From assembly GCA_017456005.1 (NCBI GenBank), contig JAFTLJ010000071.1, positions 1 to 54,616 on the forward strand: 54,616 nucleotides of DNA, read 5' to 3'. The notes under the pieces were generated by a model that did not search any database, was not told where the DNA came from, and saw only the letters and a list, made by a program, of their open reading frames with translations. Positions 23,222 to 49,100 of the stretch are shown here, in pieces; position 1 is the stretch's first letter, and each line of letters begins with the position of its first letter. The position numbers and the translations under genes were made by a program. This DNA is from Clostridia bacterium (GTDB lineage: Bacteria; Bacillota; Clostridia; Oscillospirales; CAG-272).

Positions 23222-25121
<1,900 letters not shown>

Positions 25122-25224
25122 AAAAGGTAAAAACGGCGTAAAGCGTGATGTTCTTAGCGGAGAAATAGAATAAGGGTATGGGCATAGCCCGATGCGTTTG
25201 TTATACAAATGCGAAACTGGCAAT

Positions 25225-25288
25225 AAAAACAGAAGAGAGAGTAACACGGTTACAAAATTCCGTGAAACTCTCTCTTCTCTGTTTTTTT
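25225..25288 (+). terminator. terminator of the nag operon
   Basis: A long interrupted stem (AGAGAGAGT with ACTCTCTCT, plus ACGG with CCGT inside) is followed by GTTTTTTT. It is located inside the inverted-repeat element, just before the 9-mer array. Confidence 0.85.
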
Positions 25289-25494
25289 AGTGATATTCTT
25301 TGCTCTTGCAAAGAGTGATATTATTGCTTGCGCAATAGTGATATTGAAGCCTTGCGGCTTCAGTAATATTCTATTCGCCTTGAAACTCGCGAAGCGAATA
25401 CCACTCGGCATATGCCGAATATAACTGCGTCAGCAATATCACTCGCCGGGAGGCGAATAGAACTGGCGTGATACTCCGTTAAGAGTATCACGCC
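25289..25494. repeat. array of eight 9-mers, four forward then four inverted, alternating with hairpins
   Basis: Forward 9-mers AGTGATATT lie at 25289, 25314 and 25337, and AGTAATATT at 25362. Inverted copies are AATACCACT (25397), AATATAACT (25418), AATATCACT (25435) and AATAGAACT (25456). Between them are separate small stems: CTTTGC/GCAAAG, ATTGC/GCAAT, GAAGCC/GGCTTC, TTCGC/GCGAA around the centre, CGGCAT/ATGCCG and CGCC/GGCG. The array ends in a perfect 12-bp hairpin (GGCGTGATACTC, 25465-25494). The hairpin sequences differ while the 9-mer is kept, so the 9-mer is the conserved unit. Confidence 0.85.
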
Positions 25495-25546
25495 AAAGCC
25501 GTTTTTCCTTTTTTGAAAAATAAATACGCGAAGTTAGCTAAAACCT

Positions 25547-25575
25547 TTGCATTTTTTTGTAATATAGTGTATACT
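25547..25575 (+). promoter_or_regulatory. promoter of the SLOG-domain gene
   Basis: TTGCAT (25547-25552), 17 bases, TATACT (25570-25575), 24 bases before the ATG. Confidence 0.6.
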
Positions 25576-25599
25576 GTATTTATAAAGGTGAGGTTTTGT

Positions 25600-25938
25600 A
25601 TGAAAATAGCTGTTATAGGCTCGCGCGGCCTTATTGTGCGCGATCTTGAATTTTATTTGCCGAAGGAAACTACAGAGATAGTTTCGGGTGGTGCACGCGG
25701 CGTGGACACAAGCGCCCGTATGTATGCAAAGCAAAACGGTATTTTACTTACAGAGTTTTTGCCCGATTACGAGCAATACGGAAAAATAGCACCGCTTATG
25801 CGCAATCTTGAAATTATAGATTATGCAGATGAAGTTTATGCTTTTTGGGACGGCACTTCGCGCGGCACAAAATTTGTTATAGAAAATTGCAGGCGAAAAA
25901 AGAAAAAAATACATATTTTTATGATAAAAAGCGAATAA
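25600..25938 (+). CDS. small SLOG-domain protein (DUF2493/YspA-like)
   Basis: A 112-residue Rossmann-like protein. It starts MKIAVIGSRGL, continues with IVSGGARGVDTSARMYA (the SLOG glycine-rich nucleotide motif) and has YADEVYAFWDGTSRGTKFVI, typical of DUF2493/YspA-type SLOG proteins. Such domains bind nucleotides or their derivatives and occur in NAD- or ADP-ribose-related systems. The ATG at 25600 follows AAAGGTGAGG. It stands alone; no toxin or partner gene is adjacent. Ligand unknown. Confidence 0.85.
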   Translation: MKIAVIGSRGLIVRDLEFYLPKETTEIVSGGARGVDTSARMYAKQNGILLTEFLPDYEQYGKIAPLMRNLEIIDYADEVYAFWDGTSRGTKFVIENCRRKKKKIHIFMIKSE

Positions 25939-36937: not shown

Positions 36938-37103
36938 AAAACCGATAGCTCTCCACAAACTAATGTGACAAGCTGCAAAATGTTCTCCTGCAACCCAGCG
37001 TTTTGCACGCCTGCCGCGCAAAATGCTTCGGCGAAACACCCTTTTGTCGCGTTTTGCAAGGGATTTTTCTGCGGTTACTTATGAGTTTCGCGCCTCTATC
37101 TTT
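36938..37103 (-). ncRNA. lysine riboswitch (L box)
   Basis: Read on the minus strand the leader contains GATAGAGGCGCGAAAC, AGTAACCGCAG, AAAGGGTGTTTCGCCGAAGC, GCAAAACGCTGGG and GGAGAGCTATC. These are the conserved boxes of the lysine aptamer (AGAGGNGCRA, GCCGAAG, CUGG and GGAGNGCUAUC), with P1 closed by GATAG/CTATC. It lies directly downstream of a consensus promoter and before an intrinsic terminator. So high lysine should stop expression of the carrier. Confidence 0.93.
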
Positions 37104-37117
37104 TATATTACGAAAGA

Positions 37118-46175: not shown

Positions 46176-49100
46176 TTATAGCTGCTCTTTTGCGGCGGAA
46201 AGCATGAGCTTTATTCTGTTAAGCTGGTTTACTTCGCTCGCACCGGGGTCGTAATCGACGGCAACTATATTTGCCTGTGGGTACATTTCGCGCAGTTTTT
46301 TGATAACGCCTTTTCCCACAACGTGGTTAGGCAGGCACGCAAAGGGCTGAATACAAACGATGTTTGGTGTGCCGTGTGTTACGAGCTCTACCATCTCGCC
46401 TGTTAGGAACCATCCTTCTCCGTACTGGTTGCCGAGCGACAAAATTGGCTTTGTCATTTCCGCTATTTCGTCGATCGGCGCGGGAATATCGAAGCGCTTG
46501 CTCTTTTTAAGGGCATCTATGGCCGGCTTGCGAAGATCTGCGATTATACGAAGCGCGGCATTAGAGGCGAAAACGCTTTTACGTGAAACGCCGTAGTATT
46601 TCTGTTTATAGCGCTCGTTGAACAAACAGTAATTCATAAAGTCTATCAGGTCGGGAACAACCGCCTCTGCACCCTCGCGCTCGAGAAGCTCTACAAGATG
46701 GTTGTTTGCAAGGGGCATATATTTTACGAGTATTTCGCCGACTATGCCGACACGGGGCTTTTTCATGCTTTCGTCGATAGGAAGCGCATCGAAGCTCTGC
46801 ACGATGGTATTGCACATTGCGCGGTAGCTTGTTTTGTCTTTCTTATCTGTCAAAGAGGAAATACAGCGCTCGATAAGCTTATCGCGCAGCTCGTTTGCCG
46901 AACCGGGTGTAAGCTCGTAGGGGCGTACACGGTAGAGGCAACGCATAATAAGATCACCATACAGAACACCGTAGACGGCATCTTTGATCATATTAAAGCT
47001 TATCTTGAAGCCCTCGTTCTTTTCGATGCCGTTCATGCTCAGTGATATTACGGGAATGTGTGAATATCCCGCTTTGCCGAGCGCACGGCGTATGAGCCCC
47101 ACGTAGTTGGAAGCGCGGCAGCAACCGCCTGTTTGAGTTATAAAAACTGCAAGCTTGTTTGTATCGTATCTTCCGGAAGTGATCGCTTCCATAAACTGCC
47201 CTACAACAGTTATAGAGGGGAAGCAAGCATCGTTGTTAACGTATTTAAGGCCCGTATCGATGGCCTTGCGGTTATCGTTTTTCAATATTTCAATATTGTA
47301 GCCGTGCTTGTGGAATACCGATTCGAGAATATCGAAGTGGATAGGCAGCATTTGGGGGGCGAGAATAGTATAATTCTCGTTCTTCATTTTTTGCGTATAC
47401 TCCGTGCGGTTATATGCAGTCGGCTGCGGCACTGCTTTGATGTTTTGCTCGCGGCGCAACTTCATGGCAGATATCAAGCTGCGAATACGAATACGGACCG
47501 CGCCTAGGTTGTTTACCTCGTCTATTTTAAGCACGGTATAGAGCTTATTGCTGCCTTCAAGTATTTCGTTTACCTGGTCTGTCGTTACCGCATCGAGCCC
47601 ACAGCCGAAGGAGTTTAGCTGTATCAGCTCCATATCGTCGCGGCTTCGTACAAATTCAGCGGCGGCATAAAGTCTGGAATGATATACCCATTGGTCGAGC
47701 ACGCGAAGCGGCCTTTCGGGGGATAAGTCCACGGGCAGACTGTCTTCTGTAAACACGGTAAAGCCATAGGAGGCTATAAGCTCGGGAATACCGTGGTTTA
47801 TTTCCGGGTCTATATGGTAGGGGCGCCCTGCGAGCACTATGCCGCTCGTGCCGAGTTTTTCCATTTCAGCAAGCAAGCGCGCGCCCTCTGCAAGTATATC
47901 TTCCTTCGCCTTGCGCTGTTCTTTCCAAGCAAGGTAAGCCGCTGTGCGCACCTCTTTTTCGGGAATGCCCCATTCCTCGCGGCAAATTGTGACCAAGCGG
48001 TCTGCGGCTATTTTCTCCGAGGTAAACGCCATAAACGGGCGGACGAGGCGTACTTCGCCGCGCGTAATGGATTCCACGTTGTTTTTAAGGTTTTCGGCAT
48101 AGGACACGACGATAGGGCAGTTATATTGGTTTTGTGCCGTGGTGACTTCCTTGTGCTCGTAGTAGATGCAGGGGTGGAATATGGTTTTTATGCCTTGCGC
48201 TATCAGCCATTCCACGTGCCCGTGGGAAAGCTTTGCGGGGTAGCACTCCGATTCGGAAGGGATAGATTCCATGCCGAGCTCGTATATTTTTCTGCTTGAC
48301 CAAGGGGAGAGTACCGCGCGGAAACCGAGCGCCTTAAAGAAGGTTGCCCAGAAAGGATAGTTTTCGTACATATTAAGAACTCTGGGAATGCCTATCGTGC
48401 CGCGAGGGGCATCTTTTTCTTCAAGCGGGGTATAATCGAAAATGCGCTTGCGCTTGTATTCCATCATATTGGGTGCTTTCTTTTTTCCGCCGCTGCCACC
48501 GCCGCCTTTTTCGCAACGGTTGCCCGTTATGTGGCTTTGCCCGTTAGAGAAGCGGTTGACAGTGAGCATACAGTTGTTGGAGCAACCGCCGCAACGACGG
48601 CTTGTTGACGTATATGTAAGCGCAGTTATTTCATCGAGATGGAGCATAGATGTTGGCTTTCCGCAGTAGCTCTGCTTTGCGATAAGTGCCGCGCCGAATG
48701 CACCCATAAGCCCTGCGATGTCGGGGCAAGTGGCTTCCACACCTGCTATTTTTTCAAATGCACGAAGCACTGCTTCATTGTGGAACGTACCGCCTTGTAC
48801 AACGATATGCTTTCCAAGCTCCTTTGCATCGGCGAGCTTGATAACCTTATAGAGTGCGTTTTTGATAACGGAGTAGGCAAGGCCTGCGGAAATATCCGAA
48901 ACGGTCGCGCCTTCCTTCTGCGCCTGCTTTACGTTGGAGTTCATAAATACGGTGCAACGTGTGCCGAGGTCTACGGGGGCTTTTGCGAACAAAGCTTCCT
49001 TTGAAAAGCCCTCTGCACTGAATCCCAGGGAGTTTGCGAAATTTTCTATAAACGAGCCGCACCCCGAAGAGCAAGCCTCGTTTAGCATTATGGTATCTAC

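Follow-up and report, generated by a model that had tools for sequence, protein, structure and literature searches.

An array of unlike hairpins with constant linkers forms one end of a putatively mobile, terminator-splitting element in Clostridia

Integron gene cassettes combine attC sites with the tyrosine integrase IntI, and group IIC introns combine a ribozyme with a reverse transcriptase. Closer to the locus described here is the Rfam family Gut-1 (RF01706), which was described as a 77-position noncoding RNA from human gut samples only and listed by its authors in 2010 among likely noncoding RNAs, without a function; the accessible part of that description mentions neither an array nor mobile DNA (PMC2864571). 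TnpA-REP enzymes, according to the available portion of a further paper, read a short guide and a hairpin as single-stranded DNA (PMC6006769). As far as their accessible text goes, the papers on IS1272 provide the nearest precedent for the targeting of terminators (PMC5678879; PMC4923244), and the paper on mic-qnrD provides one for cassettes that lack a transposase (PMC3913671). A literature search, with most subscription journals outside its reach, found no description of the array reported below or of cassettes in terminator loops.

We analyzed a 54,616-nucleotide stretch of DNA from a Clostridia bacterium (GCA_017456005.1, contig JAFTLJ010000071.1), hereafter the window, in which an element of ~358 bp (25138-25497) is located downstream of an APH-family host gene (24051-25121), with the left arm of this gene's terminator found at its stop codon. 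The array (25289-25494) constitutes the right part of the element; the coordinates given in the initial annotation were correct for the array but leave out the left half of the element. The features of the element and its immediate flanks are as follows.

25121-25137, plus strand: intrinsic terminator of the host gene, left arm, forming an inverted repeat with 25498-25514; the terminator is intact in four congeners
25138-25162, plus strand: element left end, from a comparison of left ends; first base uncertain by 2-5 nt
25171-25234, plus strand: leader motif also found in 5' leaders of cargo genes from other cassettes, gene-less here
25222-25287, plus strand: long hairpin with 28-nt arms (82% complementary) and a T run directly before the array; terminator-like by eye, not in the consensus scan
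25289-25297, plus strand: forward linker F1, AGTGATATT
25298-25313: hairpin F-1, CTTTGC/GCAAAG
25314-25322, plus strand: forward linker F2, AGTGATATT
25323-25336: hairpin F-2, ATTGC/GCAAT
25337-25345, plus strand: forward linker F3, AGTGATATT
25346-25361: hairpin F-3, GAAGCC/GGCTTC
25362-25370, plus strand: forward linker F4, AGTAATATT
25371-25396: centre, in which CTATTCGCC can pair with GGCGAATAG at 25452-25460 to form helix P1 (RNAalifold structure of model R1; covarying triplets)
25397-25405, minus strand: inverted linker R1, AATACCACT
25406-25417: hairpin R-1, CGGC/GCCG
25418-25426, minus strand: inverted linker R2, AATATAACT
25427-25434: mini-hairpin R-2, GC-GTCA-GC in the window
25435-25443, minus strand: inverted linker R3, AATATCACT, exact
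25444-25455: hairpin R-3, CGCC/GGCG
25456-25464, minus strand: inverted linker R4, AATAGAACT
25465-25494, no strand assigned: terminal hairpin at the element's right end, GGCGTGATACTC/GAGTATCACGCC, with a like hairpin at other copies
25498-25514, plus strand: host terminator right arm, including the T run

Each array unit consists of a linker (AATATCACT) followed by a hairpin, with four units per strand pointing outward. The four forward 9-mers (exact at 25289, 25314, and 25337, variant at 25362) and the four inverted ones (exact at 25435, changed at 25397, 25418, and 25456) were all located as initially annotated, as was one further exact copy at 47041, outside of the array. These five exact copies compare to a mean of 0.33 in 100 shuffles of the window, none of which reached 5, and a pattern of two 9-mers separated by 8-35 bases yielded 21 matches in the genome compared to 0 for a control pattern. 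Along with a generic array finder that returned 0 arrays in block-shuffled controls (60 loci), these counts place the array far above chance and rule out a chance origin in A/T-rich sequence. The six inter-linker intervals (16, 14, and 16 nt, then 12, 8, and 12 nt) each contain a different hairpin, as had been claimed for every interval, but the 26-nt centre forms no simple hairpin. Elsewhere in the window, on the minus strand, Rfam models identified a lysine riboswitch (36938-37106) and a ribosomal protein L10 leader (2255-2385) over gathering; neither the leader motif at 25171-25234 nor any Rfam intron gave a match at gathering in the window.

The element is repeated within its own genome. 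A 401-base query around the window array yielded 29 same-genome matches, 11 of which were longer than 100 bases (self included), and a second query, built from another copy's array, yielded 13, two of which may correspond to a single copy since some lie at contig ends. Copy alignment delineated a conserved part from ~25138 to 25497, outside of which the sequences form an inverted repeat that differs between copies (AAAAAGGTAAAAACGGC / GCCGTTTTTCCTTTTTT in the window, other sequence pairs elsewhere). The full gene-less element was found at three places in the genome, on contigs C60 (the window), C8, and C88; the C88 flank in G000 includes another repeat of ~120 bases with some twenty similar copies in the genome. 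Since the outer arms resemble the two arms of intrinsic terminators, we place the element in a terminator loop. This context had been missed by the initial annotation, and the array represents one end of such a terminator-splitting element.

To place these observations on a larger set, identical arrays were merged into 133 unique arrays, including 34 at contig edges, 15 ending at a terminator hairpin, and 84 testable for a split stem. A strict test, in which the right flank had to be complementary to a left arm with no more than 1 of 30 swapped flanks as good, was passed by 52 of these 84 arrays and failed by 32, including some that look like true arm pairs by eye (e.g. L317, L334) and were scored as failures. 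For copies with cargo, a distant left arm was predicted beyond the cargo gene; this held in L053, L056, and L058 (910, 1035, and 1166 bases), was weak in L057 (8 bases), and further loci also fit the prediction. Empty sites were searched for by comparing the joined flanks of 13 sites to five congeners of the genus. At the window locus, the gene end is shared by four of these (G001, G002, G003, and G004), in which an intact terminator with a loop of 4-6 bases comes next and the element is missing; no match was listed for G005. G003 was collinear across both flanks of the C5a and C58 sites (90% and 88% identity) and encoded intact hairpins at the C8 and C45 sites; at C96 and C10b it has other hairpins, the C44 alignment was poor, and the alignments did not reach across the C54 and C96c junctions. 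Insertion into terminators is thus well supported at several sites by empty, intact terminators in congeners. At most 2-3 A/T bases appear repeated by eye as a target duplication, while the congener loops differ. We consider it well supported that the element is dispersed, splits terminators of differing sequence, and is missing from the corresponding terminator in congeners.

Inverted terminal repeats without a transposase between them were observed both in the window, where 85% complementarity links the inner 20 nt of the left end (25143-25162) to positions 25474-25493 of the right terminal hairpin, and in 12 different elements of the same genome carrying the repeat TTCTCATAAGGAWGTTT at both ends and one main gene each (L055 and L222 are one cassette shown twice in this same-genome set). 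Terminator arms are visible by eye around most of these 12 cassettes, and the array is found in only some. Since many cassettes share the same terminal repeat without an array, the array is not needed for cassette mobility and was rejected as a required transposon end. Pfam names in the scanned cargo of the same genome included DUF3795, GNAT, DUF4279, DUF2695, DUF998, and HTH_3, with several proteins having no family, while cargo in other genomes included NUDIX, DUF559, and a methyltransferase-like protein below its cut-offs. A role of the cargo in anti-phage defence was also rejected, with PADLOC matching 2 of 7 proteins (an HTH protein and a restriction-like fold) and no clear defence set. 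The ~60-base leader motif (GGGGTATGGGC...GAAACTGGCGATAAAAC; window 25171-25234, L011-L028) was observed 5' of many unrelated cargo genes. A gene for a PF05635 four-helix-bundle protein was detected near arrays seven times, 332-360 bases from the array in five loci (L057, L196, L203, L208, and L342) and not so in L323 and L329; this fixed-distance gene is seen at terminator hairpins as well as inside cassettes.

Related elements encode one or two cargo genes and no recognised transposase, with the single exception of L229 (876-2170), a cassette from another genome with internal repeats and a RAYT-like ORF that scored 60.5 bits against an NCBIfam cut-off of 80 and had no Pfam match. More generally, searches for Y1 (PF01797) and DDE_Tnp_1_6 (PF13751) in the draft genome (101 contigs), and for an insertion sequence with the same ends in the loci examined, did not find a mobilising enzyme. 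Y1 is also no commoner in array genomes (46 of 120) than in the others (106 of 274; p = 1), and PF13751 is present in 1 of 7 genomes searched, other than the element's own. With neither family in that genome and no co-occurrence of Y1 with arrays, a Y1/RAYT or an IS1182 transposase was rejected as the mobiliser. Contigs C58, C91, C92, and C96 end inside or beside arrays, suggesting that the draft assembly broke at array repeats and may miss an autonomous element.

Analysis of the array itself revealed a strict grammar. Four forward linkers were identified in 105 of the 133 arrays and four inverted ones in 98, and slots and loops were counted across 76 parsed arrays, with duplicates kept and intervals outside 7-22 bases excluded. 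Forward stems were highly variable, with 18, 18, and 22 distinct arms per slot (55 arrays), whereas inverted stems were little variable, with 8, 2, and 5 (59 arrays), each side being counted only in arrays that have exactly four linkers there. The initially proposed combination of constant linkers and variable stems is thus borne out, strongly in the forward half and to a small degree in the inverted one, with the linker showing higher conservation than the forward stems. Compensatory changes, whose measurement had been suggested at the same time, are present, i.e. the stems covary: 236 distinct folding hairpins (from 253 distinct intervals, 17 of which gave no fold and hence no pairs) included 1123 Watson-Crick, 14 G.T, 23 A.C, and 31 other pairs (1191 in total). 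By comparison, 14 distinct tRNAs from the same loci included 27 G.T and 0 A.C among 296 pairs, and 394 terminator-like hairpins, selected with one mismatch allowed, included 68 G.T and 48 A.C among 3793 pairs. Terminator-like hairpins function as RNA and yet contain few G.T pairs, such that this depletion is not special to DNA, and the G.T argument, weakened by this control, was not retained as proof of DNA on its own.

GN(N)A loops occur on opposite strands in the two halves of the array. In R intervals, GN(N)A was found in 163 of 212 and the opposite kind in 0; in F intervals, its complement TN(N)C was found in 104 of 184 and the opposite kind in 4. This rule is weaker when each distinct hairpin is counted once (R, 36 of 68; F, 88 of 185; opposite kind, 1 and 5). 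The R-2 hairpin reads GC-GNA-GC in 49 of 59 arrays, the R-1 loop is GNNA in 46 of 59 (34 GNRA and 12 GNYA), and the R-3 loop is GNA in 29 of 59. GNYA loops fall outside the RNA GNRA class, and GNRA loops are good RNA loops too. In the accessible part of a study of DNA mini-hairpins, GNA and GNNA loops closed by at least two G-C pairs are described as very stable, with GCGAAGC melting at 78 °C (PMC4686876). Helix P1 closes the R half, and its variable triplets, of three types, are complementary in 89 of the 95 arrays counted out of 133.

The strict 4+4 grammar, the covarying stems almost devoid of G.T pairs, and the GN(N)A loops on the structured strand lead us to favour folded DNA over RNA. 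We consider it narrowly probable that a non-autonomous mobile element, inserted in the terminator loop behind the gene ending at 25121, has the array as its structured right-end module, and that this module works as folded DNA; we infer that it would act single-stranded, with an enzyme provided in trans. In such a mechanism, the array hairpins would form whenever a single strand is exposed by replication, transfer, or excision, a putative hairpin-binding enzyme supplied in trans would read the constant linker along with any hairpin, and this would make the array joinable to any terminator hairpin. Of the two roles suggested initially, a substrate for a recombination or replication enzyme is thus preferred, though no enzyme was found, and an RNA scaffold fits less well. 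Several observations count against this interpretation: no mobilising enzyme was found in the searches above, many cassettes with the same terminal repeat lack the array, 32 of the 84 testable arrays show no split stem under the strict rule, few G.T pairs and GNRA loops are also compatible with RNA, and a lax terminator scan picks up three hairpins in the window element, the terminal one and two of the array (3 vs. 0.7 in shuffles), as a transcription barrier would explain. Mobility itself is deduced from sequence comparison.

The main alternative is a noncoding RNA, as Rfam has it for Gut-1, in which a folded RNA scaffold would present the linkers as single-stranded sites for protein binding. 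The window matched RF01706 at 35.3 bits (E 2.5e-5) and 28.8 bits, below the gathering score of 50, with a match spanning the whole model (three hairpins and constant linkers), and other copies of the array reached 50.7-52.2 bits, i.e. over gathering. Based on sequence comparison, Gut-1 is a sister array of the window array family, a kinship missed when no family could be named for the array. RF01706 was detected in 126 of 295 genomes, 103 of them over the cut-off and with arrays of the present family included, and in 1 of 14 control genomes (E. coli), below the cut-off. Along with these matches, the low folding energy (z = -7.5 for 25280-25520 and -12.4 for 25115-25520, i.e. the whole element with flanks), the GNRA loops in 34 of 59 R-1 hairpins, and the inclusion of Gut-1 among likely noncoding RNAs in the accessible part of the 2010 paper (PMC2864571) are consistent with an RNA. 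Conversely, G.T pairs are not in excess over A.C pairs (14 to 23), in contrast to tRNAs (27 to 0) and terminator-like hairpins (68 to 48), the GN(N)A loops lie on opposite strands in the two halves, and the sole promoter-like site in 25050-25650 is outside of the element, with one expected by chance. A noncoding RNA thus appears unlikely.

Arrays also keep company with terminators. Of the 133 arrays, 122 had a recognisable last linker, and in 111 of these the next hairpin begins within one base of it; in 15 arrays, this hairpin is terminator-like (A run and T run), with two rules for ending at a terminator sharing 14 of these 15. A tRNA gene touches the terminator hairpin in 4 of the 15 (L212, L213, L291, and L322) and also in L208, outside of this set. 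In other copies, the element's own terminal hairpin occupies the site after the last linker, suggesting that the outermost unit may be any hairpin. Similarly, among 30 Gut-1 loci (best-scoring, one per genome), a terminator-like hairpin touches the array in 23, and a tRNA or tmRNA gene touches that hairpin in 14. In L207, L211, and L214, the stretch behind the terminator hairpin resembles the 3' part of a tRNA by eye, with an ARAGORN-predicted tRNA gene 120-190 bases further, which is perhaps a duplicated tRNA end.

This terminator company, with 15 of 133 arrays and 23 of 30 Gut-1 arrays ending at a terminator hairpin, could alternatively reflect a two-way transcription barrier that restores or backs up the termination broken by the insertion, against read-through from both flanks. 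That 35 of 104 arrays (those with four forward linkers and enough flank) begin just after a T run, and that the terminal hairpin and two array hairpins pass the terminator scan (3 vs. 0.7 in shuffles), would fit such a barrier. However, termination requires neither a constant 9-base linker nor covarying unlike stems in a fixed 4+4 order, and the elements have, by eye, separate terminators of their own, making a barrier less likely still than a noncoding RNA. Finally, it is improbable that the 9-mers are double-stranded DNA sites of a regulator for an adjacent promoter, with the hairpins as spacers, since even though several cargo-bearing copies show, by eye, an array that leads directly into the -35 region of the adjacent gene (cargo or PF05635) and the linker exceeds the forward stems in conservation, linker spacing ranges from 7 to >20 bases, the stems stay complementary as spacers need not, and gene-less elements keep the full array.

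Searches of related genomes, as first proposed, showed that the array is not restricted to this genome, so that the absence from further genomes that would have refuted the initial annotation was not borne out: its core (model R1) was detected in 120 of 394 genomes of the order and 61 of 168 genera, own genome included, with best scores outside its own family of up to 151.8 bits. A named scan yielded at least 114 array stretches, and all 80 examined were titled as Clostridia, Clostridiales, or Oscillospiraceae MAGs, 54 of which name a ruminant gut site and the others no host. A plasmid or phage origin was rejected, with no array match in plasmids, one partial match among phages (in an unannotated record), and one viral contig with the exact core pattern. 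Arrays with other linkers (AATGATGTT, AGCTAAATT, and GTGAAATC) are also present. Sister arrays at L216 (6560-7560) and L211 (3437-3700) carry the linkers AATGATGTT and AGCTAAATT; AATGATGTT arrays end at terminator hairpins, one of them beside a tRNA-Pro.

As a broader and more tentative proposal, which we regard as possible rather than probable, folded-DNA arrays could belong to a gene-cassette system of gut Clostridia that reads DNA shape instead of sequence, in which a putative enzyme would recognise a single-strand linker with any hairpin and join or open any intrinsic terminator, including those of tRNA genes, thereby parking accessory genes where they are least harmful. If so, the Rfam Gut-1 "RNA" would be a piece of a DNA system. 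Apart from this proposal, the kinship with the array provides this orphan family, listed in 2010 without a function, with a genomic home and a testable role, and landing in transcription terminators represents a widespread route for accessory genes into gut-bacterial genomes. Given its regular 4+4 order and its strand-opposed GN(N)A loops, the array allows a test of whether its hairpins are selected as DNA or as RNA, and the mobilising enzyme, if found, could yield a shape-directed recombinase.

Comparison to known systems highlights both likenesses and differences. As in REP, BIME, and REPIN sequences with TnpA-REP (RAYT), in the accessible account of these, a constant short sequence is found at the hairpin foot, in both orientations and in intergenic regions (PMC6006769), but here the GT[AG]G foot is absent from the listed linkers, approximately eight units have unlike stems, and Y1 is neither in the genome nor co-occurring with arrays. 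IS1272 and TnSha1 (IS1182 family) similarly insert in inverted repeats, often terminators, without a sequence consensus, according to the available parts of two papers (PMC5678879; PMC4923244); there, the stem-loop is replaced or partly deleted and a transposase is present, whereas here both arms are kept and PF13751 is not found in the genome. Mobile insertion cassettes (MIC231, mic-qnrD), in the portion of their description available, carry a promoter-bearing cargo gene between inverted repeats and no transposase (PMC3913671), as do the cassettes described here, which differ by their more than a dozen cargoes, a landing site in terminator loops, one end that may hold a hairpin array, and no matching insertion sequence found in the loci examined. 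Gut-1 has a different linker (GTGAAAT vs. AGTGATATT), and the window copy falls below its gathering score; it nevertheless is the best Rfam match and shares with the array its tandem hairpins and constant linker, its forward and inverted runs, and its frequent contact with a terminator hairpin.
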